Shown here one piece after another: positions 2,943 through 57,650 of a stretch of DNA of 64,000 nt. The position numbers and the translations under genes are program-made. Source of the DNA: Enchytraeus crypticus (lineage: Eukaryota; Annelida; Clitellata; Enchytraeida; Enchytraeidae); contig CAJHZI010000485.1 of the NCBI GenBank assembly GCA_905160935.1, positions 1 to 64,000 on the forward strand. Direction: 5' to 3'. The notes beneath the pieces were generated by a model. The model made no database searches. It was not told the DNA's origin and saw only the letters and a list, made by a program, of their open reading frames with translations. Within the stretch, counting starts at the first letter, position 1. Each line of letters opens with the position of its first letter.

Positions 2943-5900
2943 TTATACTATAGTCTATATAGGCCTATTGCTTGATATAAAGTTGCTTAAAGCTGAAATA
3001 ACAATTATCAAGAGCTATTTAGTTTAGTTTCTACCGTGTTCAAGTTTTAAGACTTAACGACTAAACTAGTTCAACATATATAATTGTATTTATTTTCGTA
3101 AGCTTTCCTCTTACTAGGCCTATCTGTTATTATAGCTTAATTAAAAGTAATATAAATTCATTGTTACCATAGGTTCAACAGTATTCTGCTGCGCAGTAAG
3201 CAATTGTAAACGAATGTGTTATTTTTATTTGCTCCTATTAACTGTATTATCACAGAGGAACCAATTTGTGGTAGCCTTCTTCTTCTAGATTATATTACTT
3301 GTTTATTTGCTAAATGAGTATGTTTGTATTTACTATTAGTGAGACGGATAAGCTAATAAAAACTTTGAAGGTAAAAATGAAAAGTTAATTACATAGATTG
3401 TCGTTGTTTCTTCACAGCAAAGATTTCCAAAAGATTTCAAAAATCTTGATGATTTTTCTATTGCTTCAGGACTTCTCCCGGTTGGATTGCATGTGGGTCT
3501 AGCTTCACCGTATAGCCGTGTATTCACGTTACCAGGATTTACTGGTTACTACATACCAGGTTAGTCCAATTTATTAAATTTTTAAAAATAATTTAGTTAG
3601 AACGTAAGACCTATAGTTGAATAATTGATTGGAATAGACCTTAGTGAGATCAATAGTTTAGAGTACAAATTAAATTAATATCTTTAATAATAAGCTGAGT
3701 GTTTGGGTATTTATATGGTTAAGCAATGACAATGTAACATTTTCAAAATATTTTTAAGAGCTGCGTGACTATTGTTATTTACTAATAATTTTCGAATGAA
3801 CTTTGACAAATGAAACTGCTAGTACATTATCTATAAATTTTAGGCCAATTCGCCGGCTGCAGTTTCTAATTTTCACTCCAGATATGTATTTATTTAAATT
3901 TTGGCAATTAGGATCAAGCGGTCATATGCTTTGTTCTATTCTTGAAAAATCGCCTTACATTTAAAACTAGAGAGAAATTTAATTTAACAGTGAGTTGAAT
4001 TATTGTTGGGTTTATTATGTTGGGTTTATTATGTTGAATTTATTGCGTTGGGTTTATTAGATTGGGTTTATTATGTTAGGTTTATTTTGTTGGGTTTATT
4101 ATGTTGGGTTTATTATTTTGGATTTATTATGTTGGGTTTTTTACGTTGAATTTATTACGTTGGGTTCATTATGTCGAGTTTTTTATGTTGGGTTTATTAT
4201 GTTGGGTTTATATGTTGAGTTTTTTATGTTGGGTTGAAGGTTTTGCCTCAGCGCCGGGTTCCCAGTTGGGTTCAGCTCAACTCTTATCTGCTCGAGGACT
4301 TCCTCCGAACTACCATCAGGCTGATGATAGATCAAGGACATCCGGATCTTCCTTAAGTCCTTCGTATCTAGGAGCTTTATCACCCGTTGGTAAGGGTAAG
4401 GATAGTTACGCTGCTATTTCGTTTCGATGAAAATCGGGTTAATGATTAAACGCAAATTATAGTGAAGTTGTTGGTCATCCATGATTTTAGCAATCACTAT
4501 AAATTAAACGAAGAGTGTTCTGATGATTTACTGGACATAACTGAGGATAGCCTTCAGAAATTATCTCAAAAACTTTTCGATGCTGAGGCTGTATTAGTGT
4601 TAAGGAATGATATTTGTTTTGAGATTAGTGTGTTTATGAGTATTGGGAGTCTCTTTAAAGTAATCTCTGATTCAACATATACTTAACCAAGCGAGAGAGA
4701 TTTTGACGACGATTGACTTAAGATATTTTCAATCGTAGGAACATAGAATTTGAAAAATAATTTCTTCAATAATTATGTCTTATGATAGAACCGGGTATTT
4801 AATTTACGAAGCGTTTAATGCTAGTGCTGGAATTAGTAGGAATTCTAGTTAAGTTTCTTACAATTCATTTTGATTGTTTTATGATCCTATGTTTATGTGT
4901 GTATGTGTGTGTATAAATTTATATGTGATGCATCTTGATCCTGTTTTTTTAAGAATAAAGAACTGAATAATAACTATCACTGATCCTGTATTTGAACCCC
5001 AGCATCTCAATCCTAAGTTCTTATTGTTTGTATAATCTGTGCTGTGATTAAAAAATAAACGAAAAATAAAAGTGGGACGTTCTATTGAAAAACATTATAC
5101 TTGAAGAAAAGGTGTTCGACTTATTTTCTAATATCGCAATGAATAACTCTCTTCATACGCAGATATTATGTCTTTTATATCACTACAGTGCCTTCAGGGA
5201 ATGCTTTATCGCTATTTAACGGATCGACCGGAAATGGCGCTTGGAGGATTTATTCTTCCAATCCTCATCAGCTGGGATGTGGGATTAACGGCGGGTCAGC
5301 TCTGGATCATCTCTATAATCCCTCTACCGCTGGACTGATCCCTCATCATGGTGTCTCTGCCCTAGAATCTGGATCAGCCTTCCTTCAGCATCAGCAACTA
5401 GCCGGTCTCGCGGTTAGATGTCTAATCAGACGATTATTTAATCGTTACATTGTACGCACAATGGACTAAATTACCTAAAGGTTTAAACATGTTTAAACAT
5501 GTAACTGGCTGGAGCCAGTGGCGAAGTCGGTAAGATACTCGACCGCGGATCAGTAAGTGCGGGGTTCAAATCCTGCGTCACTGACATCGCTTTCGAGTGA
5601 GGAAACTGTCCTTAGCTTTTTTATCTATGTGGTATTAAAGTTGATAGATATCAACATAGTTGATCGTTTCACTATAGTGCACGTTCGCTGTATCATTTCA
5701 TCTCCAAATAAGAACCCCTAGAATTTCCGTTTGTCGTCTCTTTCTCTAATGCGATGCTGTTGCTAAAATAAAATCAGATCTCTGCGTTACAGTTTTTTAT
5801 GCTTGGTTGAAGTAATGTGTTGGACCATGGAGTGTTCGTTTGCGAGGTTATGAGCTGACAGTGAGGAGTAATTAATAATTATTAGATTAATCATTTTAAA

Positions 5901-10525: not shown

Positions 10526-10572
10526 ATCTAAGGATTGAAGTTTCTCTCCCAATTGGATGCACCGCTTCAGTA

Positions 10573-11428: not shown

Positions 11429-11465
<37 letters not shown>

Positions 11466-12965: not shown

Positions 12966-12992
12966 AATAGTAATAATAATAATAATAGTGTC

Positions 12993-13160
12993 TGCGTCCG
13001 TGGCACATTGGCGAATGCGGCCTCCCAGAGCGTAGAGGAACCATTTCAAATATTTTTTCATATTTTAATCAAATAAAGTCTTTCTTTATTTTATATTTTA
13101 GCCCGGGGCCTTATACAGCCCAGGGCATTAAGAATTAAAAAATAAATAAATAATAATAAT
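12993..13160 (+). mobile_element. SINE C, copy 1
   Basis: Head TCCGTGGCACATTGGCGAAT; tail CAAATAAAGTCTTTCTTTAT, TTAGCCCGGGGCC, CAGCCCAGGGCATTAA, then AAATAAATAAT repeats. Confidence 0.7.
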
Positions 13161-14390: not shown

Positions 14391-14592
14391 AATACTTGAA
14401 TAAAGGCGATAGCATATCGTTACGATGTCCGACTTCTGATCTATCGGTAATGGGTTCAAACCCAGTTGAATCTCTAGTACAAAACGTATTTTATAAATAG
14501 GGAACTGATGCTAAACATCAACATTGATGTCTCTGACATTATCCTTGTATGAGGAAACGGACGTTAAAACATTATTATTATTATTAAACTTG
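14390..14592 (+). mobile_element. SINE with CR1/L2-like tail
   Basis: A tRNA-like B box (GGGTTCAAACCC) lies at about 14451. The 3' end is CTCTGACATTATCC, GATGAGGAAACGGACGTTAA-type sequence and (ATT)n, as in the LINE at 54838-55312. It lies just downstream of glycosyltransferase A. Confidence 0.65.
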
Positions 14593-14953
14593 ACTTTAGC
14601 CCTTTAAAGTTATCAATAATAATAAACTATGCTAATAAGGCGTATTTATTGTAATTCGCTATAATCATTGCTTTTTTGCTGTAAACAATTTGTAAAAGCC
14701 ATTAAAGAAATAGATCTGGTTACAGTACATCTAAAAATAAAGATATCAAAATATATGTTTACGCTTTGAGACTAATAAGGCAGCACGAAATATATATCAC
14801 GTTTAATTTAAGCATAGCATTATAGAAGCATACAATAATGACACATTTGAATATCCGGTATTGGTTAATATATGCAAATACTAAAACAAACTCATCTATT
14901 GATTTTCAGAAATGTTTTCTGAAATGGAGCGGCATCTAATGAAGCTACTGTAG

Positions 14954-15480
14954 CTAAATTTTTTGCTGTTTTGCTGGTGCTGCTTTGGTTTCAGTTGACG
15001 TACACAGAAGATTTTTTGAGCCATAGTAGATATGTCTAACCATTTCAGCCAGAGTAGTATTCTGACAGTCAACGTCTGAAAGAGTCTGAACCACGTATCT
15101 GTTCTTCTCGTGCATCTTCCTAACCCAGAGGTGCATAGCGTAATTCTTACTCCAGTCGATCGTCCTATCGTAAATCTGATCAATCTCAAACCAGTTCGGC
15201 CGATGAAGACTCTTTTCTTCCACGTGGATGACATCAGGATGTTGTACGGACATACGCTGAGGTTGCTCGACGGATTTTCCGGCCCAAGACTCTTGATCGG
15301 TATGGTAGTCATTATACTGGTCGAGAAGTAACCGAACGAATGGCGCCTTGGGCTCGGCGATGATGATGCCATTGCACAGTCCGTTAGATCTCTCCATTCC
15401 CATGACGGTGGAGTAAATCCTGAGCGGATCAAAGCTCTTCAGGATCAGGACATCCGCATCGATATAGATGCCTCCCAATT
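14954..15480 (-). CDS. glycosyltransferase A exon 2 (DXD exon)
   Basis: Acceptor TTTTCAG lies at 15487-15481 read on minus. The exon opens with two bases completing a Glu codon, then LGGIYIDADVLILKSFDPLR. It continues through CNGIIIAEPKAPFVRLLLDQ, WAGKSVEQPQRMSVQHPD and LHLWVRKMHEKN-type segments (here AMHLWVRKMHEKN) to a stop at 14954-14956. Confidence 0.9.
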
Positions 15481-20000: not shown

Positions 20001-20271
20001 AAGTCCTGGAGAGAGTTGGCACAGATAGACAGTTGATAAATGTATTAAGAAATAGGAAGAAGAGATGGATAGGACACATTCTAAGGGGGGAAGGTCTATT
20101 AAAAGAGGTCATAGAAGGTAGAATGGAAGGAAAAAGAGGCAGGGGAAGGCCGAGATTAGGTATGTTAGATGATTTAAAGACCCACTCATATGTGGAAGTG
20201 AAGAGGAAGGCGGAAGACAGAGAAGAGTGGAGGTGTTATGCACCATGGACCTGCCAGTAGGCAGTGCACTA

Positions 20272-20274
<3 letters not shown>
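19998..20274 (+). mobile_element. LINE family 1, 5'-truncated 3' end
   Basis: Matches 50265-50540 at about 97% by eye, with an intact tail of the second domain ([20 protein letters not shown]). It lies between two (TA)n tracts. High identity implies recent activity. Confidence 0.92.
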
Positions 20275-20334
<60 letters not shown>

Positions 20335-20395
20335 CTATATATATATAGGCCCTATATTCATTAATTCATTCATTCATTCGTTCATTTATTCGATA
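20275..20395 (+). repeat. (TA)n and ATTC repeats after LINE 3' end
   Basis: TA repeat from the LINE terminus to about 20350, then CATTCATTCATT repeats. 20396-20840 is unique DNA with no gene seen. Confidence 0.92.
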
Positions 20396-24495: not shown

Positions 24496-25013
24496 TCAGG
24501 TAATTGTTCTATTGGTAGACACGGTAACATTTGAACACCGAAGATTTTTAGAACCATAATAGATAAACCTGCACATTTCCCCTAGTGTTGTGCTTAAACA
24601 GTTGACATCTTCCAACGATTGGGCAACTTTTCTATTCTTCTCGTGCATCTTTCTCACCCAGAGATGCAGAGCATAGTTTCTACTCCATTCAATAACTCTG
24701 TCATAAATCTGATCTATCTCAAACCAATTTGGCCTGTGAAGACTGGATTCTTCCACGTGTATAATGTCTGGATGTTGTACGGACATGCGCTGAGGTTGCT
24801 CAACGGATTTTCCAGCCCAAGTTTCATGTGCAAACTGATAGACTTTGTACTGATCGAGAAGTAACCGAACGAAAGGCGCCTTGGGCTCGGCGATGATGAT
24901 GCCATTGCACAGTCCGTTAGATCTCTCCATTCCCATGACGGTGGAGTAAATCCTGAGCGGATCAAAGCTCTTCAGGATCAGGACATCCGCATCGATATAG
25001 ATGCCTCCCAATT
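24496..25013 (-). CDS. glycosyltransferase B exon 2 (DXD exon)
   Basis: Starts at the same acceptor (TTTTCAG) and phase as copy A. The first 160 bp have two differences or fewer from A; after DQY the two diverge (KVYQFAHETW against NDYHTDQESW). Confidence 0.88.
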
Positions 25014-28000
25014 CTGAAAATATATTATAACCATATTTACTGCTAATTATTGAATATATTCAGTATAAATGACAGTCAGTATAATCAAAATATAGTACAG
25101 CTTCATTGTCATATTAAGAATTAAATTGAGTTAAGACTTATAATAAGTTTCATTGTCATATAAAGATATTTTTCATTCAAAAAATACCTTCAACCGCTAG
25201 CTACTCATTCCAATCTAAACTCATTGGATTAATTATCGTAATAAACGGAGAAATAATCATCTTCTTCTTCCCTTGAAACTCTGTTTAACAAGGGTTGAGA
25301 AAAAGGGCAAATAATACCTGGAATATTTAGGATATAATGAAATAATAAATATCGAGAAACTTGGAATGATTCCTGATATAATTCAATGACTGTTCTAGCG
25401 CGTCAATAATCAACTATTCCCCATAAAAACAAATTTACGTTAAGCCACTTGTGAAAACATTAGCAACAGAGAAAAAATAAATTCTAAAAGGCGCTGACCC
25501 CGTCATCGGAGAAAGTCATCGTCATCGGAGAAAGTTCTCGTCATCGGAGAAAGTCATCGTCATCGAAGGAAGTCATCGTCATCGGAGAAATTTATCGTCA
25601 GCGTAGAAACTCAAGAGGGATAGTTAAAACTCCAGTTTAATCAAATAGTTTTAAGCTTGCGCTAGATAAAGATGATGATGATGATTATAATGATGATGAT
25701 GATGATGACGATGATGTTGGTGATGATGGTAATAAAAATAAATAACAAATAATAAGCAAAATAATAGCCATTTAATTTTGTTATAACAATAATAATAGTA
25801 ATAATAATAATAACAAAATAATAATAATAAATGTATAACGTCCATTTTCTCATCCAAAGACGATGTTTGGGAAGTCACCTCAGCATACATCACTGCAAAT
25901 AAATTCACTCAAACCAATTCTCAAAACGAAACGTACTGACTACAATTAAAGTCCTAAACGACGCTGGTCCGGTGATCAAAAGATGGTCAGGATACATTCA
26001 GGACATGAGGAGCAGAGAAAAATCAAGAGGCGTAGATTTGCAGACAGTGGTAGTAGCGAATGAGGCTGTAGCCATTCTACAGCGTCATAGGATCGTTATG
26101 GTTGACAGGAAAATAAAAGCTCTAAAAGGTAGAGAGCATATTAAATCTTCAAAGAATTTTTAAATGGCAAAACCATTTCAATTTTTGCGGTGAACCACTA
26201 AATGTTAGTGGAGACGAATGATAGTTTATGGTACTTGATACCTCAACAGCCGATTATTATAGCTTAGTGGCTGTGTTTATACATGTAGTATATGATAGTA
26301 TATGTGTTGCGTATGCATAATTAAGTACTCTTCGTTACTGAGAGGTTTTAAACGATAATGGTCTATTCTTATGATAATTATCTTGAGTTTTAAGTAAATA
26401 CTTAGACTTATTTCTTAAAACTGTACAGTTGTTTCAAAGAATTCCTTTCTTTCTGTTCGATACAATTTCTTGTTTGTTTCTGTTTTTCTAAGTTATATGG
26501 ACCTGTTTGTGCATGTCTGCAATTAAATTCTTTGATTTGATTTATTTGATTATCGGTAGCTTAAGAGTACTCAGGAAAGTTTATAGAGGATCTTGTGCTC
26601 AGTGCGTCATGTCATGCCATACAGTTATGCAACTAATAAAATGGTAATATTTAATTTCTAGGTCCTCACAAACAAGCTATCTCAGAAACGAATTAGAAAG
26701 CTGTGAATGTGAAACTTACAAGAATTATAAGTGAATTTCTTGCAAGATCACATTTGAATATATAAAGATGAAAAGATCTGAATGAGAAATAGCGACACAT
26801 GGATAACATATTGGACCATCGTCACGCTTGCATGCTCACTATTTTGCATTTAGCTTGAAAGACTTCCATACCTGGATTTTTAAAACATTTCGTCACACAC
26901 GCACAGAGTTACCCACTTAGGTCACGCGAACAATAGCACCAAAAGAGTAAGAGTGGTACCGCTGTCCACGACAATATTGAGCAATATGAAGCCAAATCCA
27001 ACCGGTGAGCAGAATGCAGACTTCAAAAAACGGTGCGACCCAAAATCCGGGAATTCAATTCAGGCCAAGGAAGTTTACAAAGTTATAAGTAGATTCAAAC
27101 AACTGCAGTCGTGTAACGTGCATTCCATACATGTTACATGTAGCCTGCATAAAAGATTTTAAAAATTGAACTCCTCGAGGATAAAACGGGGCGAATAAGT
27201 GAATTGCAATCATCTTCCCATGAATCCCGGTTTAGCAAGGATCGGGAAAAATTTAGCATAGCCATATACTGCATTGAATCAGTCAGTGAAACACGAACGG
27301 AAATGATCTGCTAGACACGTTTCACCTAGGTCATTAAAGAGTCTAGCCAAATATATATAAATAAAGAAATAAATAAACAAACATATTAAAAGTAAGAATA
27401 CTTAATCTTTATTTACAGTATATATATTTGTCGTGCAAAATGCTTGAGTAATACTGTATTATATTATGCACTTCTGCGATTAAAACGGCAGCTTATTGTA
27501 ATACTCAGCTTGGATGTTACATTGCACTTGAAAACGGACGCTAAATACTGATTCAGAGTGGATTAAAATTATGCAATAAGAGATTAGGTCTAATATCGTT
27601 CTTCAATGTCTGGGACGAGAATTAAAATTAATAATTTAATAATAATAGACGAACTAAGATATTATATAATAGTATCGGATAATAGTAATAATATTAATAA
27701 TAAAAGTAATAATAATAATGATAATAATTATAATAATAACAATAATATATTTACATCCTGCATCTAATTAAGATATCATATAATAATTCTGAATAATAAT
27801 AAATTACCAATATAATTTTAATCATACATCTAACTAAGATAATATACAATAATAATGGACAATAATAATATACTTATATCATACATCTAAATAAACTAAC
27901 CATAGATAATTTCAGTTCGAAGCAGATCAGAGGCGTGAGCAATGAATTTGAACTTTTGACCGTTAAGCGCTGTAGCCGGGGTCTTCCTCGTCACGTGATA

Positions 28001-28486
28001 GACATTGGGTACCTCCTGACGAACCTTTTCCCACCACTCCCCTGCTGGGCCCTTCTCTCCGTGAACTAGAATAGCTAGAGGCTTGATGAACCTGTGCACA
28101 CTGACGAAGCTGATGTAATGAAGAAATGTAAACTTTAGATCTGTTCCGAGCCACACGTAGTGAACTACATTGGGAATAATAATACGGCCTCCACCGGAAA
28201 ATATTCTTTTACTAGATTCTGACGGATCTGTTCGGTTTCGGGACACGAGAGAAAAAGGAAACCCAAATGACTTGAGGGCACTGAAAACATCGCCTCCTAG
28301 CAATCTATTTGGTAATGTTTTATTTTCAGAGCAATTAGATGTAGTTGGCGGATCAGTAATGAAAACTTGTTTATATCTAGAAGTAATGGCTACTAATAAA
28401 AAAATTGAAAACGCGAAGAAAGCTATGACGAAGTTTCGCCTCAAACAGGCCTGTAGGAAAGCCGAGTGGTCATTTTTAAACATCAT
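24496..28486 (-). CDS. GT32-like type II glycosyltransferase, copy B (two exons, complete)
   Basis: Paralogue of copy A with the same predicted role, topology and intron position. Exon 1 is 28486-27901 and exon 2 is 25013-24496, 367 residues. The membrane anchor is at about residues 17-36 (NFVIAFFAFSIFLLVAI). The luminal stem carries sequons NCS, NKT and NRT. VVHYVWLG and the DAD motif (residues 203-205, in LGGIYIDADV) are retained, so the enzyme looks intact. The C-terminus differs (ends NVTVSTNRTIT against AAPAKQQKI in A). The catalytic core from PSESSKRI to the middle of exon 2 is nearly identical to A, while the N-terminal stem and C-terminal third have diverged. That suggests conserved chemistry with different localisation or acceptor preference, which is inference. 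Confidence 0.88.
25501..25614 (+). repeat. 19-bp minisatellite, six copies
   Basis: CGTCATCGGAGAAAGTCAT units inside the intron of glycosyltransferase B, followed by (GAT)n and (AAT)n to 25835. Confidence 0.9.
26940..27080 (+). repeat. (CAA)n-headed repeat family (intron of glycosyltransferase B)
   Basis: AGAGTGGTACCGCTGTCCAC, AGCAATATGAAGCCAAATCC and CAAAATCCGGGAATTCA match the family body; the CAA head is lost. Confidence 0.65.
27901..28486 (-). CDS. glycosyltransferase B exon 1
   Basis: ATG at 28486-28484; 586 bp ending in phase 1 at donor TATG/GTTAGT. A second in-frame Met directly follows the first, so either could be used. Confidence 0.87.
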
Positions 28487-28620
28487 CCTGTAAACTTCCT
28501 AAAACAGAAATATATTGTGAATTTATAGGTATATTAGGACTATCATATATACTGTATATGAAGATATAGGAAATGAATGCATTGATATACGCTAAATATA
28601 TGCACGAGCTATAGGAAGTT

Positions 28621-44377: not shown

Positions 44378-45247
44378 TTAGAATTCATCTTTCGAGCTGA
44401 TATCCGTCAACAGATCTTTTTCATAGGATTCATCTGTAAGGACGCTCTTCTGATCAATCAGTTCTGCTTCAACCGTCAGCAACACGGGTTCGCCAGTGAC
44501 CCCATCGTAGCAGCCGTTCTTCTCAACCGATCCCACCTGATTCTGCTCCTTATCTTCCTGACAGCTGTTCCTGACGCACTGACGAATGGGAGACATACAC
44601 ACCTGACTGCGACTGTGGATCGACTGATCCAAACCCGTAGCTTCTAGAGAGTCACCACTGCTCGCTTCCACTTTCTTTCTCCTCCTCAAACTCAGCACTC
44701 TGACAGACTGCTTCGCCTTTCTTCTGTACCCGTTAGATCTGAAGCAGAATCTCCACAAACAGCACGAATGGAGCAACACCCGTAGGCGACTTCTCGACGG
44801 GCAGGCCTTTCCAGCGGCCTTCCGAAATCCGTCTCCGAGAAAGCAGTAGATAATCGGATTGAGAGATGGAATGGCGTAGGACAGTGTGTGGGCAAATATC
44901 TTGTATCGATAAGTGATCTCGGTTAGAGGGAACTTAAGGTCGAACTTTCTCCAGAGTTGTAGAACATGGATGGGCAGCCAGCAGATAGCGAAAACGAGAA
45001 AAATAACGGCCACCATTTTGGCTGTTTTACGTCTTCTGCGCAGGTTTGAACAGCTGGCTCTTTGTTTGGTCTGTCTGGCGCCTCTGTGGCTTGATCTCGT
45101 GGTCTCTGTTCTAGCAGAGGAAAAGGTACCGGTCTGAGATACAACCTCTGTGGACGCTGGACCGGTAGAATGGATTTTGGATTTGAAAACGCCTCCACAA
45201 GTTGTTGTAGTACTGGCTTCGAGATTTGTAGTTGTGAAATCACTGGC
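44378..45247 (-). CDS. GPCR exon 4: ICL3, TM6, TM7, C-tail
   Basis: Acceptor TTGTTTCAG, 289 codons and a stop. ICL3 is Thr/Ser-rich then strongly basic (NLRRRRKTAK). TM6 is VAVIFLVFAICWLPIHVLQL, TM7 HTLSYAIPSLNPIIYCFL, helix 8 FRKAAGK. A tail of about 145 residues has basic clusters and ends LLTDISSKDEF. Confidence 0.88.
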   Translation of the reverse strand, partial: ASDFTTTNLEASTTTTCGGVFKSKIHSTGPASTEVVSQTGTFSSARTETTRSSHRGARQTKQRASCSNLRRRRKTAKMVAVIFLVFAICWLPIHVLQLWRKFDLKFPLTEITYRYKIFAHTLSYAIPSLNPIIYCFLGDGFRKAAGKACPSRSRLRVLLHSCCLWRFCFRSNGYRRKAKQSVRVLSLRRRKKVEASSGDSLEATGLDQSIHSRSQVCMSPIRQCVRNSCQEDKEQNQVGSVEKNGCYDGVTGEPVLLTVEAELIDQKSVLTDESYEKDLLTDISSKDEF

Positions 45248-47404
45248 CTGAAACAAGAAGTGTATAAGTACATTATAAGACTCTAAATACATTATAAGAC
45301 TCTAAATACATTATAAGACTCTAAATACATTATAAGACTCTAAATACATTATAGGACTCTAAATACATTATATGACTCAAAATACATTATAAGAATTTAA
45401 ATACATTATAAGACTCTAAATACATTATAGGACTCTAAATACATTATATGACTCAAAATACATTATAAGAATTTAAATACATTATAAGACTCTAAATACA
45501 TTATAAGACTCTAAATACATTATAAGACTCTAAATACATTATATGACTCCAAATACATTATAAGACTCCAAATACATTATAAGACTCCAAATACATTATA
45601 AGACTCTAAATACATTATAAGACTCTAAATACATTATATGAGTCAAAATACATTATAAGAATTTAAATACATTATAAGACTCTAAATTCAACATAAGACT
45701 CTAAATACAATAAAAGACTCTAAATACATTGTAAGACTCTGAAAACATTACATGACTATACATGTAAGTACATTCTTTCTCTCTTAGTGCATTGCCTACT
45801 GGCAGGTCCATGGTGTATAACGCCTCCACTCTATTCTGTCTTCCGCTTTCCTCTTCATGTCCACATATGAGTGAGTCTTTAAATAATCTACTCGTATGTG
45901 GACATGAAGAGAATAGCGGAAGACAGTGAAGACTGGAGGCGTTATAAGACTATTATCTAATATACTAAGTACATTAGAAAACTATAAATACATTATAAGA
46001 ACTTTGACTTACGCAGACTCAGCATAGAGTCACATAATCATAAAGTTGATAGGTTGTAATTTATAATGAATGAAATAACTGCCAAAATATTTATTAAGGG
46101 CTTATCGTTTCAGAGCACATGATGGAATTAGAATTTATTGCAGTAAACTATATTACGTTAACAATTTCGCGTTGAGTTACACTCACATATCGAGTCAGTA
46201 TTATACCAAATATGCCCTTAATTACTTCTTAGGTCTGATTTTGCAATTCCTGATATGTGATATTATTATTATTTTCGTTTAGTATCGTTTATTGATTCAT
46301 CACAGCACAGATTACACAAACAATAGGAACGCGCATGTAGTTAAATAATAAACTAACACTCCAAAAGAGGCTACTATGAAAGAACCATAGTTCGATAATA
46401 CCACAATTAGTAGCTACATCAGGGTCTAATTGAGTCTGAAAGACAAAAAAATCTATATTAAGATTAACGAGACAACATGTATTGTTTTATTGATTCCAAA
46501 TTCCAAATTCCAGGATTTGACATTATGAGGCTTTTTGGTTGTATGAACGGAATACTAATAATTCTTATACTTTATAACCATCTTTATTGTAAACATCCGC
46601 AACTATTCCCAACTTTTCTTTACTTGAGTGAAAAATTACATTTTAATTGCCATCCCAGTCCGTATTAAATTTGGTTGTGTACGTTTTAAAGTGCTATAAA
46701 GCATATTGGTCCATTACATTGAATGTTGTTTAATTAGGTAAAAATGCAACACACTAACTTATAAGCAAAGCCAGCAATGATTTATAAGTTTGTTTCGTAG
46801 AATTTTATATAGCAATTTAGCAAATCTATTTGTATATCACGTAATTAAGCAAAAATACGCGAAATACTCGATACTCTCATAGGACTACCATCAGTCTAAA
46901 CATTTTAGGTTATTATAATTTTATACTCTTATATATAAGGCAGTTCTGCTCTTCTAATATAGTTTTTCTCTTATGTACTAACACTCTCATAATGCATTTA
47001 TGCATGCTGAGACTATATTGTATGGATGAGAAACATGGACCTTAAGGAAGGAAGATATTAGGAAACTGGAGGCATTGGAAATGTGGATTTGGAGAAGAAT
47101 GGAGAGAATTAGCTGGACTCTAAAGTTTACAAATGAGGAAGTTCTGGAGAGTGTTGTTACAAATAGACAGTTGATAAATGTATTAAGAAATAGGAAGAGT
47201 TGGATAGGACATATTCTAAGTGGGAAAGGTTTACTAAACGAGGTTACAGAAGGCAGAATGAAAGGAAATAGAGGCAGAGGCAGGCCGAGATTAGAAATAT
47301 TATATGATTTAAAGATCTACTCATACATGGACATGAAGAGGGAAGCAGAAGACAGAGAATAGTGGAGGAGCTATTTACAATGGCAGGTATAGTAGGCAGT
47401 GCAC

Positions 47405-48281: not shown

Positions 48282-50537
48282 GATAGACAATATTCTGACA
48301 AAGCAACGGTATAGGAATAGTGTGAAGAATGCAAGGGCTTATCCAAGAGACGATATTAATTCAGACCACAATCTAGTATTGGCAAAAGTAGGGCTTCAGC
48401 TGAAGAAAATACATAAGAAGAAAAGCAGTAAGAGATGGAATTTGAACGGATTGAACTAGAAAAGAAGTCAGTTTCAGGAAGCAGGGGAAAGAAAAGTTAA
48501 GGAAATGAAGGACTACGGAACTACAGGGATAAATTAAAGATGGTGTCAGCTAAAGGAGGCTGTTAAAATAGGTGCAAAAGAAGTTTATGGCTGTCTTAAA
48601 GCAAATACAGCTAAAAACTTTGGATCACAAGCGAGATGCTAGACAAAATGAATGAAAGGAGGAAATGGAAAAGTATAGATACCAGTCATGGCCGAAGGAA
48701 ATATAGAAGCTTAAGCAGTGAACTTCGAAGAATTACAGACAAAGCAAAAGTTCAATGGTGGAGTGAAAAGTGTGATGATTTAGCAGAATATGATAGAAGA
48801 GGGAGGAGGTCGGATCTATTATACTAGGAAGTCAGGATATTAACAAGAACTGATAAGAACAAGAAAGGAGATGCAAAGAACATTAGTATAATGAGTAAAG
48901 ATGGGGAATTGAAGACAGAGCTGGAAGAAGTAAAAGAAAGATGTAGAGAATATGTCGAGGAATTGTATGATAAGGCTGGGAAACCAGTTCAAGAGGATTT
49001 TAAAATAGAAGAAGAAAATATCATAGAAGACGATAAAAGGGGCCCCGATTTAATGAAGGAGAAAATTTATTCTGCAATTAACAGAATGAAGAAGGGGAAG
49101 ACAGCCGGAATAGATGAAATCCCAGCAGAATTCTTGAAAATGTTGGAAGGAGAAACACTCAAAAAGTTAATAGAGTTATGTATGGAAGTGTACAATACAG
49201 GTATTTGGCCAGACGACTTTACCAAATCAGTGATGATCCCAATTCCCAAAAAAGCCAATGCTGTGGAGTGTTCCGATTACAGAACAATCAGTTTAATACC
49301 TCATGCATCGTAGATCTTATTAAAGATAGTAAATAATCGCATTCAGTCGAAAGCAGAGATGATACTGAGCAAGACACAATTTGGTTTTAGGAAAGGATGC
49401 GGCACAAGAGAAGCAATAGGACTAATGCGGGTTCTTTGTGAAAGAAGCTTAGAATATGGAAATGACGTTTTTGTATGCTTTGTAGACTTCGAGAAAGCCT
49501 TTGACAGGATTGATTGGATAACGATGATGAATATCTTAAAAAGAATAGGAATTGACCGGAGAGATAGAAGACTAATTTAGAACTTGTACATGAATCAAAG
49601 AGCAGTAATCAAAATCCAACAAGAATACTCAGAAGAAGGTGAAGTAGGACGTGGATTAAGACAAGGTTGTAGCATTTCGCCGCTGCTGTTTAACATTTAC
49701 GCTGAGGCAATGATGGAGAAAGCCATGGAAGACCTGGAAGAAAAAATAAAAGTAGGAGGAAATTTGGTACAAGATGTACGATTTGCAGATGACTAAGGAA
49801 TGGTAGCGGGCAGCGAGATTGGATTGCAGAAGATAATGGATAGGCTGAATGATACGGCTTTGAGATATGGAATGAAGATTAATATAAAAATGACCAAGGT
49901 TATGAGAGTGTCCAATAATAAAGGTGAAGTTAATATCACAATAGATGGCACGAAATTGGAACAGGTAAGGAGTTTCAAATATTTGGGTCATACTATAACC
50001 GATGACGGGAAATGTGAGACGGAAATATGCAGTAGGATTGCACAAGCAAAAAGCGGCATTTGGTATTAGAAAAAAACTATTAACAAAAAGTCTAAAGAAA
50101 GACACAAAGATAAAGATAGTGAAAACTTTGGTTTGGACCACGCTATTGTATGGGTGTGAAACATCGACCTTAAGGAAGGAAGATATTAGGAAACTGGAGG
50201 CATTGGAAAATGTGGATTTGGAGAAGAATGGAGAGGATTAGCAGGACCAAAAGGTTACAAATGAAGAAGTTCTGGAGAGAGTTGGCACAGATAGACAGTT
50301 GATTAATGTATTAAGAAATAGGAAGAATAGATGGATAGGACACATTCTAAGGGGGGAAGGTCTATTAAAAGAGGTCATAGAAGGTAGAATGGTAGGAAAA
50401 AGAGGCAGGGGCAGGCCGAGATTAGGTATGTTAGATGAATTAAAGACCCACTCATATGTGGAAATGAAGAGGAAGGCGGAAGACAGAGAAGAGTGGAGGC
50501 GTTATGTACCATGGACCTGCCAGTAAGCAGTGCGCTA

Positions 50538-50708: not shown

Positions 50709-53700
50709 TATATATATTATATATATATATACTTCTTTATTTGTCAACATTAACAAGAAGAAAAGTAACAGAAAACAACTCAAACAGTAATGGTATATAT
50801 GATAGACATATTATTGAATAAATTAATTGTCTAAGATGTAATATATAAAGTATACATAAATTACAGGAGTAACTTAATTATCGAAGATAGAAATAAAGTA
50901 TAAAAACAATATAAATGTAAAGTATTGTCTAAGATTGCGGAGGGGGGAGGGGAAGAGAACTATGTTAATTGTCCAACACACTCCATACCCATAGCTTGTC
51001 TCATTCAGCCATGGCAATACGTTGCTGATCTATTAGACGTTTTTACAACTGCAATTTTATATCGTTTGAGATTATTACTGATGTCGTGTGATAATATCAG
51101 TAATAATAAAATCGTCTGAGTAGTATACAAGAATAAACCTCAAGTGCAATTAAACAAGTAGATTGTAGGCGTGCGCAGATGTAGTCTCCTAATTACTGCA
51201 AATACACTGCATTTCAGTTTATTGTGAATATGCCACAAGTGTCGCAAAGCTTAACATTTATTCCATGATTTTCATTATGATAAATTATTTTTACATTTTC
51301 TCTACTGTATTCTTCATCCCACGCTATTCCAACGAAAATCAAGCTGAGCTTATGTAAACACCGCTAATTTTAACTTAGTTTACATTTATTATTATAAAAT
51401 TAGAATAATTTAATCTATTATTAAATTTATTTTATCTAATAATCATTTTACATAATAAAATTAATTTAACAACAATTTGGGCTGAACCTGCGGCGTGTTG
51501 ACAAGTTGTTGGAAAGCAGATCAGTAGGTGTATGGATTAAATCTAGTATTCTCCCCGTCACTAACATACTTTAGAGACATGAAACTGACGCTAAAGTTGA
51601 CTTTGGCTTTAGATTTCCTGGTTTGAACTTTTTTCCTTTGGCACTCTCACTAATTTTGAAAGGGGTACCTCCAACCTATATAATGCTGAATTGAGTTTCA
51701 ATAGCAAATCGGGAGCTCAATAAGTTCTTTCAAAATTGATCTATTCGTAAAATGTACTAGTAGAAACATTACACATAACAAAGAAACAATGAACCATTAC
51801 CTTATACTGAAATCTAAGTACGATAGTGCGAAACTTTTAAATGTAATGGCAACAACACTTAAAGTGTTACTGACGTCAATGACAACATTGAGCACTATTG
51901 AATTAATTACAAGCTGTCGAGCAAAAAGCAAAAGGACCGAACTACAATGCGAAAAACAAAATACAAAATCTAGTTCAAAGACATGGAATTTTAAATAAGT
52001 AAATATTCATAGAAATCTTTTGCATCGTACGCAAGATACTCAACTTCTAGCGAAATTTGTAGGATTTTCTTACAAATTTTACCAACTAGGACAACAGCAA
52101 CAACAACAGAATTAGAGTGCTACTGTTGTACATGACAACGAGGACGCAATAAGCAATCTTTATGCAGATGGATAATGAAAAACTGTATTGTACTGCAGCA
52201 ATACTGTCTGCCGTTTAGCGGACATATAAATACAAGCATACAACCACAGAAGTAGACAAGCATACAACCACAGAAATAGACAAGAATACAACTACAGACA
52301 TAGACAAGCATATAACTACAGAAATAGACAAACATACAACCGCAGAAATATACAAACATACAACCGCAGAAATTGACACAAGAAAACAATCACAGAAATA
52401 GACAAGCATACAACAACAGAAATAGACAAGAATACAAGCACAGAAATAGACCTACATACAACTACAGAAAAAGACAAGCATACAACCGCTGCGAATCGAC
52501 GGGGTTTAGTCGAAGGAGTACACTTGGCAAGATGACGCAATATTCTCCAGTAGCAGATGACAATCAGTGCCAGAGGTGTGACGTAGGTCAAGGTTATGAC
52601 GTAAACAATGGCAGTCTGGCCCACCCATGGCTGAGGCCAGGTCTCCCAGCAGCGCATCTGAACGATCTCGGCAGGATTGTCCATGAAGGGGTCAGCGGAG
52701 GTGCCCAAGAGGTATACCGAGGTGGTAGAAGGGGAGGGGTTATCCGCTCTGACGAGATCATGGTGAAGGGCGAACGGTAAACAAAGAACTAGAGACACTG
52801 AAACAGACCAGCATATGGTATTTTTATTAAATAATGGCATAAATAAATAAGTAATTATTTTAATCGCCGCATTGTTTTTACTTTTAATTAAATAAAGTCT
52901 CTTTTATCTTATTTTTTAGCCCATGGCCCTATTCAGCCCAGGGCATTAAAAAATAAATAAATAAGTATATAAATAAATATATAAATAACTAAAGACATAA
53001 ATTGTAATGCATGCTTCTCTTATTGTGCTTGCGGATAGTGAGGAATAGATTAAGAGTTTACTGTGTAAGAGGAAACTAAGCAATTAATCAGGACAGCAAT
53101 GTAAAACCACCGCAGAAGCCTTATTAGTCTTAACCCATAGGCTATATTAAGGAATCAGAAGAGCCATAGTGTTCCGGTATGTTCTAGATCAACTGGTTGC
53201 TTGATATCTTTTTGACTCGATATTTTGGTCGCACCTTAGGCGCTAAATGGTGCCGATTATGCAAGTAAGCAGTTTCAGATTTCGTTTCTCATTATCTGAC
53301 ATTAATCGGCTAATTGAAAGCACATATGGAATCCCAATGAACCACTTCATACTATTTACAACAATGCTTGGGATGTATGCAATAATAAATTAGGATGTAT
53401 GTAGCTATGCTTGGGGTGTATGTAGCAATACATTAGGGTGTATGTAGCAATGCATTAGGATGTATGTAACAATGCATTAGGCTGTATTTAGCAATGCATT
53501 AGGGTGTATATAGAAGTACATTAGCATGTATGTAGCAACGCATTAGGGTGTATGTTGCAATACACTAGGGTGTAAGTAGCAATGCTTAGTGTGCATGTAG
53601 CAATGTATTATGATGTATGTAGCAATGCATTAGGATGTATGAGGCGATGCATTAGGATGTATGTAGCAATGCAATATGGCGCATGTTGCAATGCATTAGG

Positions 53701-56700
53701 GTGTAAATACCTATCCAACTCATCCCGTTGATGACGGCGGCTAGTCTAGGGGTGCGATGAGGCAGGGACTCTATCGGGTGGATGATGGAGAAATAGCGGT
53801 CAACTGTCATGGCGGACATCGTCAAACAACTGGCAAACAGCAGAACCTGTGCGTGGACACAATCACAATATGTACAAAGCAAACATCATCATCATCTTCC
53901 CTTAAATCCCAGTTTAACCAGGGTCGGGGTACTAATAGACTTTCTCCAGTCCTCCCGGGCAAAAACAAAACAAACAGTCAAACAGACAAAAGACAAAGAA
54001 CCGGAAAAGGCAACAAAACAACAAAAACAATGAAAGCCAACAAAAAAACAGAAAAAAAGACAAAGACAGTCTCATTTAGTTTTCTGTCTTGAAGGCGTAT
54101 CAGTGACGGGAAGAGCACTGGTTTTGAATAAGGGAACTGCTGAATTATAGTCGGGCATGTTACCGATGTGCTACCGGCTTCACTCGATAATAAATTAACT
54201 ACATCCTATCTCGAGTTCCGCTAAGTGGCAGATCCTTGGCAGACATTTCTACTCACAGCTTTCGTTTAGGAACTTCAGTTAAATCCTCAAATCCACGCTG
54301 ATCTTGATCTTAAAATCCTTAAATCCCTACTAACCTTGATTTTTAAGTGACTGAAGTAAATTGTCGGTCATAGGAAGAAGCAGAATATGTAGAATTAACT
54401 AAGCTACTTTCACAATTCCTCTACTAGCCTTTTACATTATTTAAGCGATAGACGTAATCGTGGATGATATAATAAACGCATTAGGTAGGTTATGTCATAG
54501 CTTAACAGAAGGTAAGTACCGCGTAACACGACAACTAATTTTTTTAAATGAACGCGACATTATTTTAATGTTAAATTTTTTGAGTTGAAGCTTCAGTCAC
54601 AAATGGTTTCAAGGCCATTGGTCTTGGCTGTTGTTCCTGTGCAAATTAAATTGTCAGTTTTGTTACTTAATGATATTTAAATTTGATCAGAAATAACCTA
54701 ATAATATAATTAGATAAGAAAAATCAAATGTTATTGTAATTAATTTATCTTATTTTTCTTTAAGTTCACCATAGCTTACATTTAGTTTGTGTTTTTTCCT
54801 GTTGCATTTGCTTGTTTGTGTGTTGTATATCGCATAAAATATAAAATAGCTCTATTAAGTTTCAAAACTCAGCGATTTGGCAAGCCTTCTTACTTATCTG
54901 AAATTCTTCTTCCCTATCATCCCTCACGTGCACTTCGCTCCACCGATGCCAATCTTCTCTCTGTTCCAAATATTCTCACATCATTGGGCAGACGTTCTCT
55001 TTTCTTACGCAGCACCCACAATCTGGAACTCTTTACCTGCTAATCTTCGCTCTTGTTCTTCTCTTTCAACATTCTCTAGCAAGCTTAAAACTTACCTTTT
55101 CCCACCGTAGACATAATCAATCTACCTGACCATTTTTGATCACCGAACTGGCTTTCGTTTAGGACCTTACTTCTCCTCAGCACATTTCTTTTGCAGATTG
55201 GTCTGGGTGAATTGATCTGTAGTGATGTGTGCTGTTGGGGACGTCCCTGACATCATCCCTGGATGAGGAAACGGACGTTAAACCTTTATTATTATTATTA
55301 TTATTATTATTATATGTGAACTCCACAGAGTTGAATGACCCTTTTTGGTGTTCTTAGTAAATTGAATTGAATTGAGATGAAATAGAAAATAAGTTACCTA
55401 ATGATATCATAACTGTCAGTATTGCATATGATTAGGCCTATATTATGATATTATGATTAAGTAAATTCATATTTAATAATACTATAATTGGCTAATAAAT
55501 TACCTAGGTCTTATTATAATATAATCAGATAAGAAGCTGATAAATTAAAGTGCACAGGAAAGCTTTAGTTGAATATCTTCTATGCAATGTGTTTTTCAAA
55601 ATAATTAAATGAACAAAATTAACACACTCCCTTATTCCATTAGCGTATTGCCTAACGGCAGGTCCGAGACATAAAATGTATCTCTTCAGTCAATGCCATC
55701 CTCCGCTTTTTTAAACTCGATGTACGAATACACGATAAAATCGTATAACAGGGTAGGATTTAGCGCACTTGTTTCAGCTGCGCGTCAAGAAACGAAGTTA
55801 AGCTACGTTGTACCCAGTTAGTACTTGAATGGCTCACCACCTTGGTAGGAAGGCCGTGTGTTGGTAGTTTCTAAAGAAAGGAAGTCCGCAAGGTGTTGGA
55901 AGTTTATTCTTAACACCGAGTCTGGTGCAAATAAAGCGCTAACAAAAGCAAATTATTACGCGAATATTTGCCAAATGGAAGTAGAAAATGACGAAACTAT
56001 AAAAGCAGACGCTAAGCAAGTAACTCGAAATAAGAGCGGTGTGTCAAGTGTTAAACCGTCTAAAATACATAACAATGGATTTAAAAAAGCTAAAGCTAAT
56101 GTTAACGTCAGTTTCCTCACTCGAAAGCTATGACAGTGACGGGAGAGGCCAGGATTTGAACCCCGCACTGATCCGAGGTCTAATATCTTACCGACTTCAC
56201 CACTGGCGATTAATGATCCGTCGTTTCTTTGATCTATGACTGATATCAAAATATGCTCTATGTGCTGGTAATTTAAATCCTAACGGCACTGATGAATCCT
56301 AACGGTACGTGCCTCTCAAAATGTTCATAATAAATTATGCGAAATTAATATACTTGGTTTTTCAAGCTGGTCACCCACAAAATACTAAACTGACTCGACG
56401 TAGATTAACTTGGTTCAAATGACACACGGCTATGCCGAGTGCGCTAAATCCGGCCCCAAATGCACATAAACTGACCACTTTAATTAAATCAAATGTTATA
56501 CTATTAAAATATAAAATAGTAAACACGCATTACAGTGAAATGGTCTACTATGTTGATATCTATCACTTTCAATAACACGTGTTTAACGCATGTTATACGT
56601 TAGACTATTTAGACCATTTTACGTAAAACCAGTCCAGTCAATGATATAGATTTTACCCTCAGATCAGCGCGGCTTGGATTCGAACCCACGAGGATTTAAT

Positions 56701-57401
56701 TCACCTCGGGATCTGTCATTTAAAACTTCATGAAGTTACCCCTATGCTATTAAGACTTTCTAATGTCTACTCGACAACAGATGAATTTTTTCGGACACAT
56801 TATGCGGAACAAAATAGTTGAAAATATCGTAGTGACAGGAATAATAGATGGCAAAGATGCAAGAGTCGACAGCGGATGACGTTTATTAAGAGTCCTAGCA
56901 AATTGATGCAGTTAACTGAAACAGAGATGATCAGAGCAACAATGAACAGAGACATATGGAGGAATATGACCATGACCGCCCAGGCATGGAACAGGCACGG
57001 CACTTAGAGAAGAAGTAGAAGAATGTCTACTCGTATTCAATACTTACGTAGATCGTATACATGTTGAACTTGCAGGCAGCTCGTCCTAGAACAGTGATAC
57101 TAGGCAGGGCGTAGTAAAGCATGGTGCTAGGGATGACTATGGCGCTGAAGGCCAGGTCAGTCAGTGCCAGGTTAATGACGTAGAAATTAGTTGCATTTCT
57201 CTCGGCGTGACGTAACATGACATAAAGCACGACGCAATTTCCAACCAATCCGGTCAGAGTTAGCGGAGTCCAGATTGTTGGGACTATTACCGTGTCATCC
57301 AGTTCCATGGAGATGGGCGGACCTTGGTAGGATTGCTTCTGTCCTGATGATCCTGTTACATGGAACTCTTCTCCGCTTGAGTTACGACAATCCGGCTCCA
57401 T
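44378..57401 (-). CDS. Galanin/kisspeptin-type neuropeptide GPCR (four exons, complete)
   Basis: Seven-transmembrane rhodopsin-family receptor, 556 residues, exons 57401-57048, 53846-53711, 52797-52487 and 45247-44378. Phases 0, 1 and 0 are consistent and every junction is GT-AG. Visible landmarks are: N-terminal sequon NSS (8-10); TM1 LVGNCVVLYVMLRH with N55; TM2 NLALTDLAF with D82; C110 before TM3; DRY at 134-136; ECL2 C213; TM6 CWLP (356-359); and TM7 NPIIY (397-401). PHRTPRLA after DRY resembles kisspeptin receptors. HVLQLWRKFDLKFPL and the TM7 region resemble galanin receptor 1. The length (vertebrate members are about 350-400) is due to a long ECL2, a basic Ser/Thr-rich ICL3 and a long C-terminal tail. 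The subfamily is not settled; a Gq- or Gi-coupled neuropeptide receptor at the plasma membrane is inferred. Introns are large and repeat-filled. Confidence 0.88.
45268..45765 (-). repeat. 19-bp minisatellite next to GPCR exon 4 acceptor
   Basis: About 25 copies of ACTCTAAATACATTATAAG begin about 20 bases upstream of the 3' splice site. Read in gene direction each unit contains GTCTTATAATG, which resembles a branch-point sequence. Confidence 0.92.
45779..45946. mobile_element. Two LINE family 1 stubs, head-to-head
   Basis: A minus-strand 3' end (45779-45885) is followed at once by a plus-strand fragment (45886-45946) of the same 3' region, giving an imperfect palindrome. It lies in GPCR intron 3. 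Confidence 0.8.
47000..47409 (+). mobile_element. LINE family 1, 3' end with (GA)n tail
   Basis: Encodes [43 protein letters not shown] and the terminus GCAGTGCACTAAG, followed by (GA)n to about 47470. Confidence 0.9.
47410..47610. repeat. (GA)n tract and a perfect hairpin
   Basis: (GA)n runs to about 47470. 47579-47610 is a perfect 13-14-bp inverted repeat (ACATCGGACTTAG and CTAAGTCCGATGT). Confidence 0.88.
48008..48284 (+). repeat. (TA)n tracts flanking LINE pieces
   Basis: TA runs at 48008-48075 and 48220-48284, on either side of the minus-strand LINE-tailed fragment. Confidence 0.93.
48072..48225 (-). mobile_element. LINE-tailed element fragment
   Basis: Family 1 terminus (ATCTTAGTGCACTGCCGACT) continuing into the TGATATACCAATATTCTTTG segment shared with the non-autonomous LINE-tailed elements. 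(TA)n lies on both sides, and the large LINE starts 60 bp further on. Confidence 0.75.
48285..50540 (+). mobile_element. RTE-like LINE, 5'-truncated, defective (family 1 reference copy)
   Basis: Non-LTR retrotransposon. The end of the endonuclease is visible (SDHNLVLAKV at about 48358-48387). The reverse transcriptase follows: GKTAGIDEIPAEFLK (about 49096), GFRKGCGTREAI (about 49380), CFVDFEKAFDRI (about 49480), GRGLRQGCSISPLLFNIY (about 49650) and catalytic VRFADD (about 49780-49795). The C-terminal region has [25 protein letters not shown] and [14 protein letters not shown]. It is broken by in-frame stops at 48457, 49311, 49578 and 49794 and a frameshift near 50040. The 3' end CAGTGCGCTAAG runs straight into (TA)n. 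The RTE clade is suggested by the motifs and the microsatellite 3' end; a related clade is not excluded. Confidence 0.9.
50541..50732 (+). repeat. (TA)n tracts at LINE 3' ends
   Basis: One run starts at the terminus of the large LINE, the other at the terminus of the stub at 50592. 50733-51478 is unique intron DNA. Confidence 0.95.
50592..50671 (+). mobile_element. LINE family 1, 3'-end stub
   Basis: About 80 bp with the last bases of the coding end and the CCATGGACCTGCCAGTAGGC-type terminus, flanked on both sides by (TA)n. It sits just downstream of the large copy. Confidence 0.85.
51479..51605 (+). mobile_element. SINE A, degenerate (GPCR intron 3)
   Basis: CCCCGTCACTAACATACTTT and GAAACTGACGCTAAAGTTGA recall the tail; the head is diverged. 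Confidence 0.45.
52217..52490 (-). repeat. 24-bp minisatellite at GPCR exon 3 donor
   Basis: About 11 copies of AGAAATAGACAAGCATACAA-CCAC. The first copy in gene direction is the 5' splice site itself (GCG/GTTGTATG); the same GCGGTTGTATG occurs twice more inside the array, at about 52331-52341 and 52355-52365. Confidence 0.93.
52487..52797 (-). CDS. GPCR exon 3: TM4 end, ECL2, TM5
   Basis: Acceptor GTCTGTTTCAG, donor GCG/GTTGTATG, 311 bp. It encodes SLVLCLPFALHHDL, a long ECL2 with MRCWETWPQPW, then TM5 VYVITLTYVTPLALIVICYW and RILRHLAKC. The donor lies at the edge of a minisatellite. Confidence 0.85.
52863..52978 (+). mobile_element. SINE C, 3' half (GPCR intron 2)
   Basis: AATTAAATAAAGTCTCTTTT and TTAGCCCATGGCCCTATTCA, GCATTAAAAAATAAATAAAT tail; about 65 bp upstream of GPCR exon 3 in gene order. 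Confidence 0.7.
53393..53707 (-). repeat. 22-bp minisatellite at GPCR exon 2 donor
   Basis: About 14 copies of TGTATGTAGCAATGCATTAG-GA, ending within about 10 bases of the donor at 53710. Each unit holds palindromic TGCATTA/GCAATGCATT-like DNA. Confidence 0.92.
53711..53846 (-). CDS. GPCR exon 2: TM3-DRY-TM4
   Basis: Acceptor CACGCACAG, donor GTATTT. It encodes VLLFASCLTMSAMTVDRYFS, then IIHPIESLPHRTPRLA and AAVINGMSWI. Splicing exon 1 to exon 2 gives exactly the spacing from Cys to DRY seen in kisspeptin receptors. Confidence 0.87.
53885..53950 (-). repeat. GAT-tailed repeat family (GPCR intron 1)
   Basis: CATCATCATCTTCCCTTAAA and CCAGTTTAACCAGGGTCGGG, the reverse of the 29505 copy; about 40 bp upstream of GPCR exon 2. 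Confidence 0.65.
54066..54185 (-). mobile_element. SINE A, degenerate
   Basis: CAGTGACGGGAAGAGCACTG, then diverged B box and head in reverse. Confidence 0.4.
54838..55312 (+). mobile_element. CR1/L2-type LINE, 3' end with (ATT)n tail
   Basis: Two frames share the typical C-terminus: YLSEILLPYHPSRALRS and AAPTIWNSLPANLRSCSSLS followed by FSSKLKTYLF. The 3' UTR ends GTCCCTGACATC, GATGAGGAAACGGACGTTAA and then ATT repeats. It is frameshifted and 5'-truncated, in GPCR intron 1. Confidence 0.8.
55635..55715 (-). mobile_element. LINE family 1, degenerate 3'-end stub
   Basis: TTAGCGTATTGCCTAACGGC resembles the family terminus with several substitutions, in GPCR intron 1. Confidence 0.55.
55745..55990 (+). 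mobile_element. 5S-rRNA-derived SINE, copy 3 (GPCR intron 1)
   Basis: The clearest 5S match: GAAGTTAAGCTACGTTGTAC and GTTAGTACTTGAATGGCTCA (box A/box C-like), then GCGCTAACAAAAGCAAATTA. Confidence 0.75.
56088..56208 (-). mobile_element. SINE A
   Basis: TCCTCACTCGAAAGCTATGA tail and GGATTTGAACCCCGCACT, ending CTTCACCACTGGC; the first bases of the head are missing. Confidence 0.82.
56350..56462 (-). mobile_element. 5S-rRNA-derived SINE, 5' part
   Basis: In reverse: CCGGATTTAGCGCACTCGGC, AGTTAATCTACGTCGAGTCA, GTGGGTGACCAGCTTG. The body is missing. Confidence 0.65.
56527..56765 (-). mobile_element. SINE B (GPCR intron 1)
   Basis: Reverse copy: ATGTTGATATCTATCACTTT, GATTCGAACCCACGAGG, CATTTAAAACTTCATGAAGT. 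Confidence 0.78.
56765..57018 (+). mobile_element. RTE-like LINE family 2, 3' end
   Basis: Conceptual reading gives FFGHIMRNKIVENIVVTG and related residues, the same C-terminal region as family 1 but diverged, ending GGAACAGGCACGGCACTTAG. It begins about 30 bp inside GPCR intron 1. Confidence 0.75.
57048..57401 (-). CDS. GPCR exon 1: N-terminus, TM1, TM2, start of TM3
   Basis: The ATG at 57401 is followed by 118 codons to donor TAC/GTAAGT. It encodes NSS, GLVGNCVVLYVMLRH, NLALTDLAF and AACKFNMYTIY. Another Met at residue 32 is possible, but the upstream Met keeps the glycosylation site. Confidence 0.87.
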
Positions 57402-57486
57402 CTTGAACCAGAGTTTAACTGATGAAATTCATCCAGCGGAGAGTATTGAATCCGAAAGATTTAAAGTCTTCTTAAGAATTATATTG

Positions 57487-57650
57487 AACTTACTGGTAAT
57501 TCGTACATTGAACTAACTGTAATTCGTATAATTAACTAATTTGCTAATTCGTATATTGAACTAACTGTAATTCGTATAATTAACTAATTTGCTAATTCGT
57601 ATAATGAACTAAACGGTAATTCATGTTTTGAACTAATTGGTAATTCAGTT
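57487..57650 (+). repeat. 23-25-bp minisatellite upstream of GPCR start
   Basis: About seven copies of TAACTGTAATTCGTATAATT-like units, about 85 bp 5' of the start codon of the receptor, so possibly in its 5' UTR or promoter. Confidence 0.88.

Follow-up and report, generated by a model that had tools for sequence, protein, structure and literature searches.

Why minisatellites should lie directly on splice junctions is the question raised by a 64,000-nucleotide stretch of the genome of the annelid Enchytraeus crypticus (positions 1-64000 of contig CAJHZI010000485.1; referred to as the window hereafter). In the window, a gene for a G-protein-coupled receptor (GPCR) and a gene that we take, from the sequence of its RNA recognition motif (RRM), to be Musashi-like carry tandem arrays at or next to the ends of their introns. 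A sequence-only reading of the window had claimed that this proximity exceeds chance, and had offered three causes: replication or R-loop stress at splice sites, tolerance of expansions that keep the splice signals, and intron growth by tandem duplication from the junction. Here, arrays were called with Tandem Repeats Finder (TRF), exons were rebuilt from reading frame and homology, and the genome searched comprised 524 Mb in 802 contigs. The answer that we regard as probable is that these are minisatellites of the kind known as mirages in lancelets, in which duplication of the junction and tolerance act together and the copies multiply in the intron.

TRF placed arrays, at coordinates close to those proposed, by the donors of GPCR exons 2 and 3, the acceptor of GPCR exon 4 and a Musashi-like acceptor (Table 1). 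The intron-end set of the window consisted of 23 ends from the GPCR gene, the Musashi-like gene and two glycosyltransferase paralogues, and an array edge within 20 bp of an intron end was regarded as a contact. Four of the 23 ends were in contact, at distances of 5, -1, 17 and 4 bp in the above order. Two of the exon edges entered in this test were off by a single base (3469 in place of 3470, and 15479 in place of 15480), with no effect on the counts. With the main array filter, circular shifts gave a mean of 0.24 contacts, with four or more in 2 of 4000 shifts, and off-exon placement gave a mean of 0.19, with four or more in none of 2000 placements. Under three other array filters, four or more contacts occurred in 1, 1 and 3 of 4000 shifts and in 0 of 2000 placements. 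When coverage was considered, the points 20 bp inside the introns fell within arrays at 4 of the 23 ends, as compared with a background of 8.6-11.3% (P = 0.13-0.26). Thus, the coincidence of array edges and exon edges is significant, while the argument from which the claim had been drawn, namely about 20 intron ends in a window of which a tenth is covered by arrays, does not reach significance on its own. Testing four contacts directly against 20 ends and 10% coverage was not accepted as evidence, because a coverage null already predicts about two contacts. The two nulls ask different questions: the edges of the arrays coincide with exons, and the amount of array sequence near exons is ordinary.

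The structures of the four arrays can be described as follows. The GPCR gene has four coding exons on the minus strand, which join into one open seven-transmembrane protein; Pfam 7tm_1 was matched by exons 1, 3 and 4, the match of exon 3 being below the curated cut-off. The exon 2 donor array opens at base 6 of intron 2, and a GT at the junction-equivalent place of the unit is present in the junction copy only. The exon 3 donor array begins on the final exon base, as the exon is assumed here. Homology leaves the donor GT of this exon at 52486 or 52483, perhaps at one slightly upstream, and donor-like GTATGC or GTATGT is found within 7 of the 11 units. At the exon 4 acceptor, well-matched units continue to base -24, and a degenerate unit then runs through the tract and the acceptor. 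In the Musashi-like gene, which lies on the plus strand and whose exons 3470-3559 and 4240-4389 are joined in frame, the array consists of TTATGTTGGGTTTA units and constitutes the T-rich tract upstream of the exon. A Pfam search with the 51-amino-acid RRM-like piece of this gene found no domain.

Clearer structures were found outside the window on the same contig, in a gene that is presumably L2HGDH-like. Its exons b to h join as one open protein; Pfam DAO was matched by exons b, d and e (d under the cut-off), and exon d is aligned from its first residue with the PDB chain 8w75_D (FI05204p). Arrays occur on 5 of the 13 intron ends of this gene, a coverage above the background (P = 0.011). At exons c (62 bp), d (41 bp) and g (41 bp), the repeat unit includes both the splice site and the edge of the exon, and at exon g the GT is retained in 6 of 9 copies, the junction copy being counted. 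In another gene of this contig, which we assume to be RBMS-like, an array was noticed at a donor near contig position 108665; it was not counted, as the ends of this gene are not all fixed.

The genes in a larger sample were obtained by a Pfam myosin-head search, which gave 81 exon hits; 80 of them, on 22 contigs, were taken with 250 bp flanks. The top PDB chains for all three of three muscle-myosin exons come from organisms that we take to be squid or scallop. A fixed rule blind to repeats assigned splice sites to 141 of 160 ends; the other 19 were dropped for want of an acceptable site. An array lay within 20 bp of the edge or over it at 19 of the 141 ends, as compared with 1.57 expected under off-exon placement. 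This expectation was derived from the background density at positions 64001-193520 of the window contig, where 72 arrays (period of at least 10 bp) in 129,520 bp make up 11.6% of the sequence; about 11% of this contig is minisatellite. The distances of the near array edges were distributed as 10 (0 bp or inside the exon), 9 (1-20 bp), 8 (21-50 bp), 3 (51-100 bp), 1 (101-150 bp) and 3 (151-200 bp). At least one contact was found on 16 of the 22 contigs, and a bootstrap over contigs gave a contact rate of 9-19%. Among the dropped ends, an array lies over the start of the hit at L051, L068 and L107, one lies inside the hit at L091, and one stops 11 bp before the hit at L100. The proposal of a genome-wide pattern is supported on the scale of this myosin sample, not on that of a full-genome count.

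At 10 of the 141 myosin ends, the array extends into the exon, for 16-72 bp by the called sites, so that the exon end and the splice site are themselves repeated. When these ten arrays were aligned on the junction, the GT or AG was retained in 26 of the 28 inner copies. L093 has six copies of a complete donor, atggag/gtaagc (the slash marks the junction), and L092 has six acceptor copies. At L106, the rule took an upstream acceptor copy, and, judging by the reading frame, the true acceptor lies 36 bp downstream; the true overlap is about 6 bp, not the 42 bp called, and the end is still a contact. In L036, L049, L092 and L093, several inner copies have changes in common that the junction copy does not have. 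Such a distribution would be expected if the copies homogenise each other while the coding copy stays out, and it resembles the exclusion of the boundary copy described for the globin mirages of lancelets. Two further coding-looking frames in L025 (3638-3862 and 7542-7733), for which no Pfam match was found, adjoin arrays at 3832-4496 and 7760-7945; they were kept out of the counts.

The positions of the arrays, the exon-derived sequence within them, the splice dinucleotides in their copies and their recurrence in other genes are direct observations, and the following course of events may connect them. A tandem duplication would capture the exon end together with the splice site and the intron start, or the intron edge alone. 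The copies would then multiply within the intron, presumably by slippage or unequal exchange. The outermost splice site, which is joined to the full exon, would be the one used, and the repeats would be spliced out, so that the mRNA can stay unchanged and the arrays would be nearly neutral. Since the mRNA can stay unchanged, arrays would be tolerated up to the exon, and the exon itself would stop them. The coverage profile agrees with this expectation near the edge. Among the myosin ends, the array coverage at intron positions +1, +10, +20, +50, +100 and +200 was 7.1, 9.9, 12.8, 19.1, 19.1 and 13.6%, respectively, and random segments of 700 bp gave a background of 12.3% (111 of 900 points). 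No excess is thus seen from +1 to +20 (18 of 141 at +20), and the pooled data of the myosin, window and L2HGDH-like ends, which are not independent of one another, gave 27 of 177 at +20 (P = 0.14). Coverage that reaches the edge without excess fits the prediction of tolerance, which among the three causes proposed from the sequence alone fits best. The tandem duplication from the junction is visible where the unit holds exon sequence (exons c, d and g of the L2HGDH-like gene and the ten myosin ends), and not clearly in the four window arrays. As the coverage of 12.8% at +20 is no higher than the background, the edge itself can be explained without replication or R-loop stress.

The main alternative is that exons act simply as a wall: arrays would arise uniformly in this repeat-rich genome, purifying selection would bar them from exons, and their edges would consequently pile up at the junctions. 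The ordinary coverage at +20 and the non-significant coverage test of the window are what such a wall would produce, and we give this explanation an appreciable, although less than even, chance. It does not account for the units that include the exon edge at the ten myosin and three L2HGDH-like ends; these arrays must therefore have begun by duplication across the junction. The coverage of the L2HGDH-like ends and the raised coverage at +50 are also at variance with it. A junction hotspot that seeds minisatellites through R-loops, replication or transcription stress, or a step in GC content would explain this coverage peak at +50 to +100, the attraction of array edges to GC-rich segments, and an abundance of edges within 20 bp that is about 6 times (abutting arrays, 9 versus 1.57) to about 12 times (all, 19 versus 1.57) the off-exon expectation. 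Yet a hotspot is not reflected in the coverage at +1 to +20, and the contact rate is similar for donors (11 of 77) and for acceptors (8 of 64). We consider it unlikely, and a strong hotspot is not favored.

The arrays might also be functional, supplying extra splice sites or a T-rich tract for robust splicing, or in-frame variants of the peptide. The retention of splice dinucleotides in the ten overlapping myosin arrays and the T-rich tract formed by the Musashi-side array are compatible with this idea, and boundary tandem repeats of human duplicated genes are reported, in the accessible part of the source, to alter splicing (PMC2812944). However, the unit length is a multiple of 3 in only 6 of 28 cases, so that the use of an inner copy would usually shift the frame; in-frame extension as the function was rejected on this ground. 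In addition, at exon 2 of the GPCR gene and exon e of the L2HGDH-like gene, the GT at the corresponding place is present in the junction copy only. A function of this kind is thus very improbable. The small number of intron ends and the fact that the finding was picked after looking would suggest that the result of the window reflects chance or erroneous exon models. This explanation is the hardest to credit, since the pattern was replicated in genes outside the original claim, with exons that are frame-continuous or homology-based.

Several results weigh against the combination of tolerance and duplication preferred here. The coverage at +50 is raised, both in the myosin sample (27 of 141, P = 0.013) and in the pooled, non-independent ends (37 of 177, P = 0.0008), and tolerance alone fails to predict this; the rise to 19% at +50 to +100 is not explained by it. 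The contact rate was 6 of 69 for the stronger myosin hits and 13 of 72 for the weaker ones. The window units contain little or no exon sequence, and at L2HGDH-like exon e the GT is absent from all eight inner copies among the nine. Array edges were also found near the ends of GC-rich non-coding segments (18 of 502) more often than in random windows (68 of 6000), and, compared with this GC-rich rate, the myosin ends that arrays abut without overlap (9 of 141) stand out only marginally (P = 0.07). Composition thus accounts for part of the abutting class. These GC-rich pseudo-exons, a set that probably includes some unannotated exons, exclude array bases by construction, and the control is therefore silent on the exon-overlapping arrays. 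With no excess at the edge, a modest excess further in and the enrichment at GC-rich segments, the simplest account is that minisatellites are not excluded from splice sites and that some of them start as cross-junction duplications. Tolerance plus cross-junction duplication remains the best reading.

The other features of the window are as follows. The two glycosyltransferase paralogues (14953-17434 and 24497-28490) have a DXD motif and an intron position in common, and their Pfam Gly_transf_sug matches are just under the cut-off. A weak repeat with a period of 66 bp lies 30 bp into the intron from the donor of the second paralogue, and no such array was found at the corresponding intron start of the first. 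Because the sequence is AT-rich, this comparison of the paralogous introns gives only a weak hint. By eye, the acceptor ends of the two paralogues are nearly identical. Another array, of 24/48 bp, lies at 57480-57646, about 80-245 bp 5' of the start codon of the GPCR gene, and a 48 bp minisatellite at 12230-12590 (7.5 copies, 98% matches) has one frame open throughout. A long interspersed nuclear element (LINE)-like element with a weak reverse transcriptase match lies at 48828-50500, and copies of its tail lie near 6911-7309, 15930-15990, 20100-20350, 45765-45960 and 47030-47360. As judged by eye, these copies have a common 3' stretch at their end, and in several of them different microsatellites follow. 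The 19 bp array of the GPCR exon 4 acceptor starts just past one of the tail copies. An ab initio gene finder, for which the window supplied only a few training exons, was discarded for its strong over-prediction.

Table 1. Positions of the exons and arrays of the window
Feature	Positions	Strand	Description
GPCR exon 1	57048..57401	-	7tm_1 start
GPCR exon 2	53711..53846	-	donor GT 53710-53709; frame-continuous protein
GPCR exon 3	52487..52797	-	7tm_1 below cut-off; frame-continuous protein
GPCR exon 4	44381..45247	-	7tm_1, domain end and tail
Exon 2 donor array	53362..53705	-	22 bp unit, about 15 copies, TRF
Exon 3 donor array	52232..52487	-	24 bp unit, about 11 copies, TRF
Exon 4 acceptor array	45265..45750	-	19 bp unit, about 26 copies, TRF
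Musashi-side array	3999..4235	+	14 bp T-rich unit, about 17 copies, TRF
Musashi-like exon 3' of array	4240..4389	+	frame join
Weak repeat of 66 bp period	27709..27870	-	2.4 copies, 76% matches

A minisatellite at a donor of the human gene IFI6 (interferon-induced gene 6-16) reportedly supplies multiple splice donors, at that single locus. The closest known system is that of the lancelet mirages, which are described in the accessible parts of the sources as tandem repeats across the exon-intron boundaries of the amphioxus Adh3, globin, troponin C and PGBD5 genes (PMC3087553, PMC3902484; the latter added PGBD5 and cited troponin C). According to the same parts, their units are tens of bp long, up to about 160 bp in the globins, they occur at both 5' and 3' boundaries, many copies carry AG/GT, and in the globins the boundary copy is left out of homogenisation. 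The present arrays are likewise found at exon-intron boundaries (4 of 23 ends in the window, 5 of 13 in the L2HGDH-like gene and 19 of 141 in the myosin sample), have a boundary-spanning unit at three exons of the L2HGDH-like gene (c, d and g) and in the ten exon-overlapping myosin arrays, and keep AG/GT in many copies (26 of 28 inner copies in those myosin arrays; clear in the window at the exon 3 donor array only). They differ from mirages in that the units of the four window arrays hold almost only intron sequence, in that the pattern was counted here over a gene sample, and in the host, whose mitochondrial gene order is annelid-like and not that of a lancelet. On the mitochondrial contig C802 (15,205 bp; 8901-14700 examined), cox1, cox2, cox3, nad6, cob and atp6 follow in this order on one strand; the Pfam matches of nad6 and atp6 are below the curated cut-off, and the short frame in the place of atp8 gave no Pfam match. 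Conserved annelid clusters are given as cox1-N-cox2 and cox3-Q-nad6-cob-W-atp6-R in the accessible part of PMC2667193, and the order is stated in that of PMC4866719 to be highly conserved in most annelids. A lancelet origin was considered and rejected on this gene order and on the PDB ranking of the three muscle-myosin exons; a search for a mollusc haemocyanin family gave no hit, which is not decisive. Partial cox1 matches with stops, perhaps nuclear mitochondrial copies, were seen at C361:258458-258736 and in C424, C796, C373 and C166.

Repeats of this kind are not confined to lancelets, as the human segmental-duplication genes indicate. For these genes, the accessible part of PMC2812944 describes variable tandem repeats that lie where exons and introns meet, accompanied by alternative splicing and by new introns. 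Those minisatellites resemble ours in their location (units of about 30 bp, 27 intron modifications); unlike ours, they lie in recently duplicated paralogues with alternative splicing, whereas the present ones lie in ordinary invertebrate genes and are known from DNA alone. In intron gain by tandem genomic duplication, as far as the accessible descriptions go, splice signals are likewise copied, but there a new intron is made from exon sequence, while here existing introns carry the copies. In annelids, intron 1 of an earthworm metallothionein gene contains minisatellites with monomers of about 180 bp, for which the accessible part of the report gives no link to splice junctions (PMC12783039). 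Judged from titles and the starts of abstracts, no case of annelid splice-junction minisatellites was found in the open-licence PMC literature.

So far, mirages have been described from only a few genes of lancelets, and repeats at exon boundaries from human duplicated genes. The 19 of 141 myosin ends found here suggest that other minisatellite-rich genomes may carry mirages. It is possible, although we hold it only tentatively and think it somewhat doubtful, that introns evolve in a general and lineage-recurrent way through minisatellites at splice junctions, which involve about one in eight intron ends in this annelid. If this is true, the spliceosome must rely on position to rank the identical and complete splice sites that stand in a row at some of these ends, and new exon ends and introns would be continually available from the arrays. 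In practice, errors are likely where genes are annotated, or short reads mapped, across such junctions. The arrays would also offer many natural experiments on the choice between identical neighboring splice sites and on the lengthening or shift of introns.

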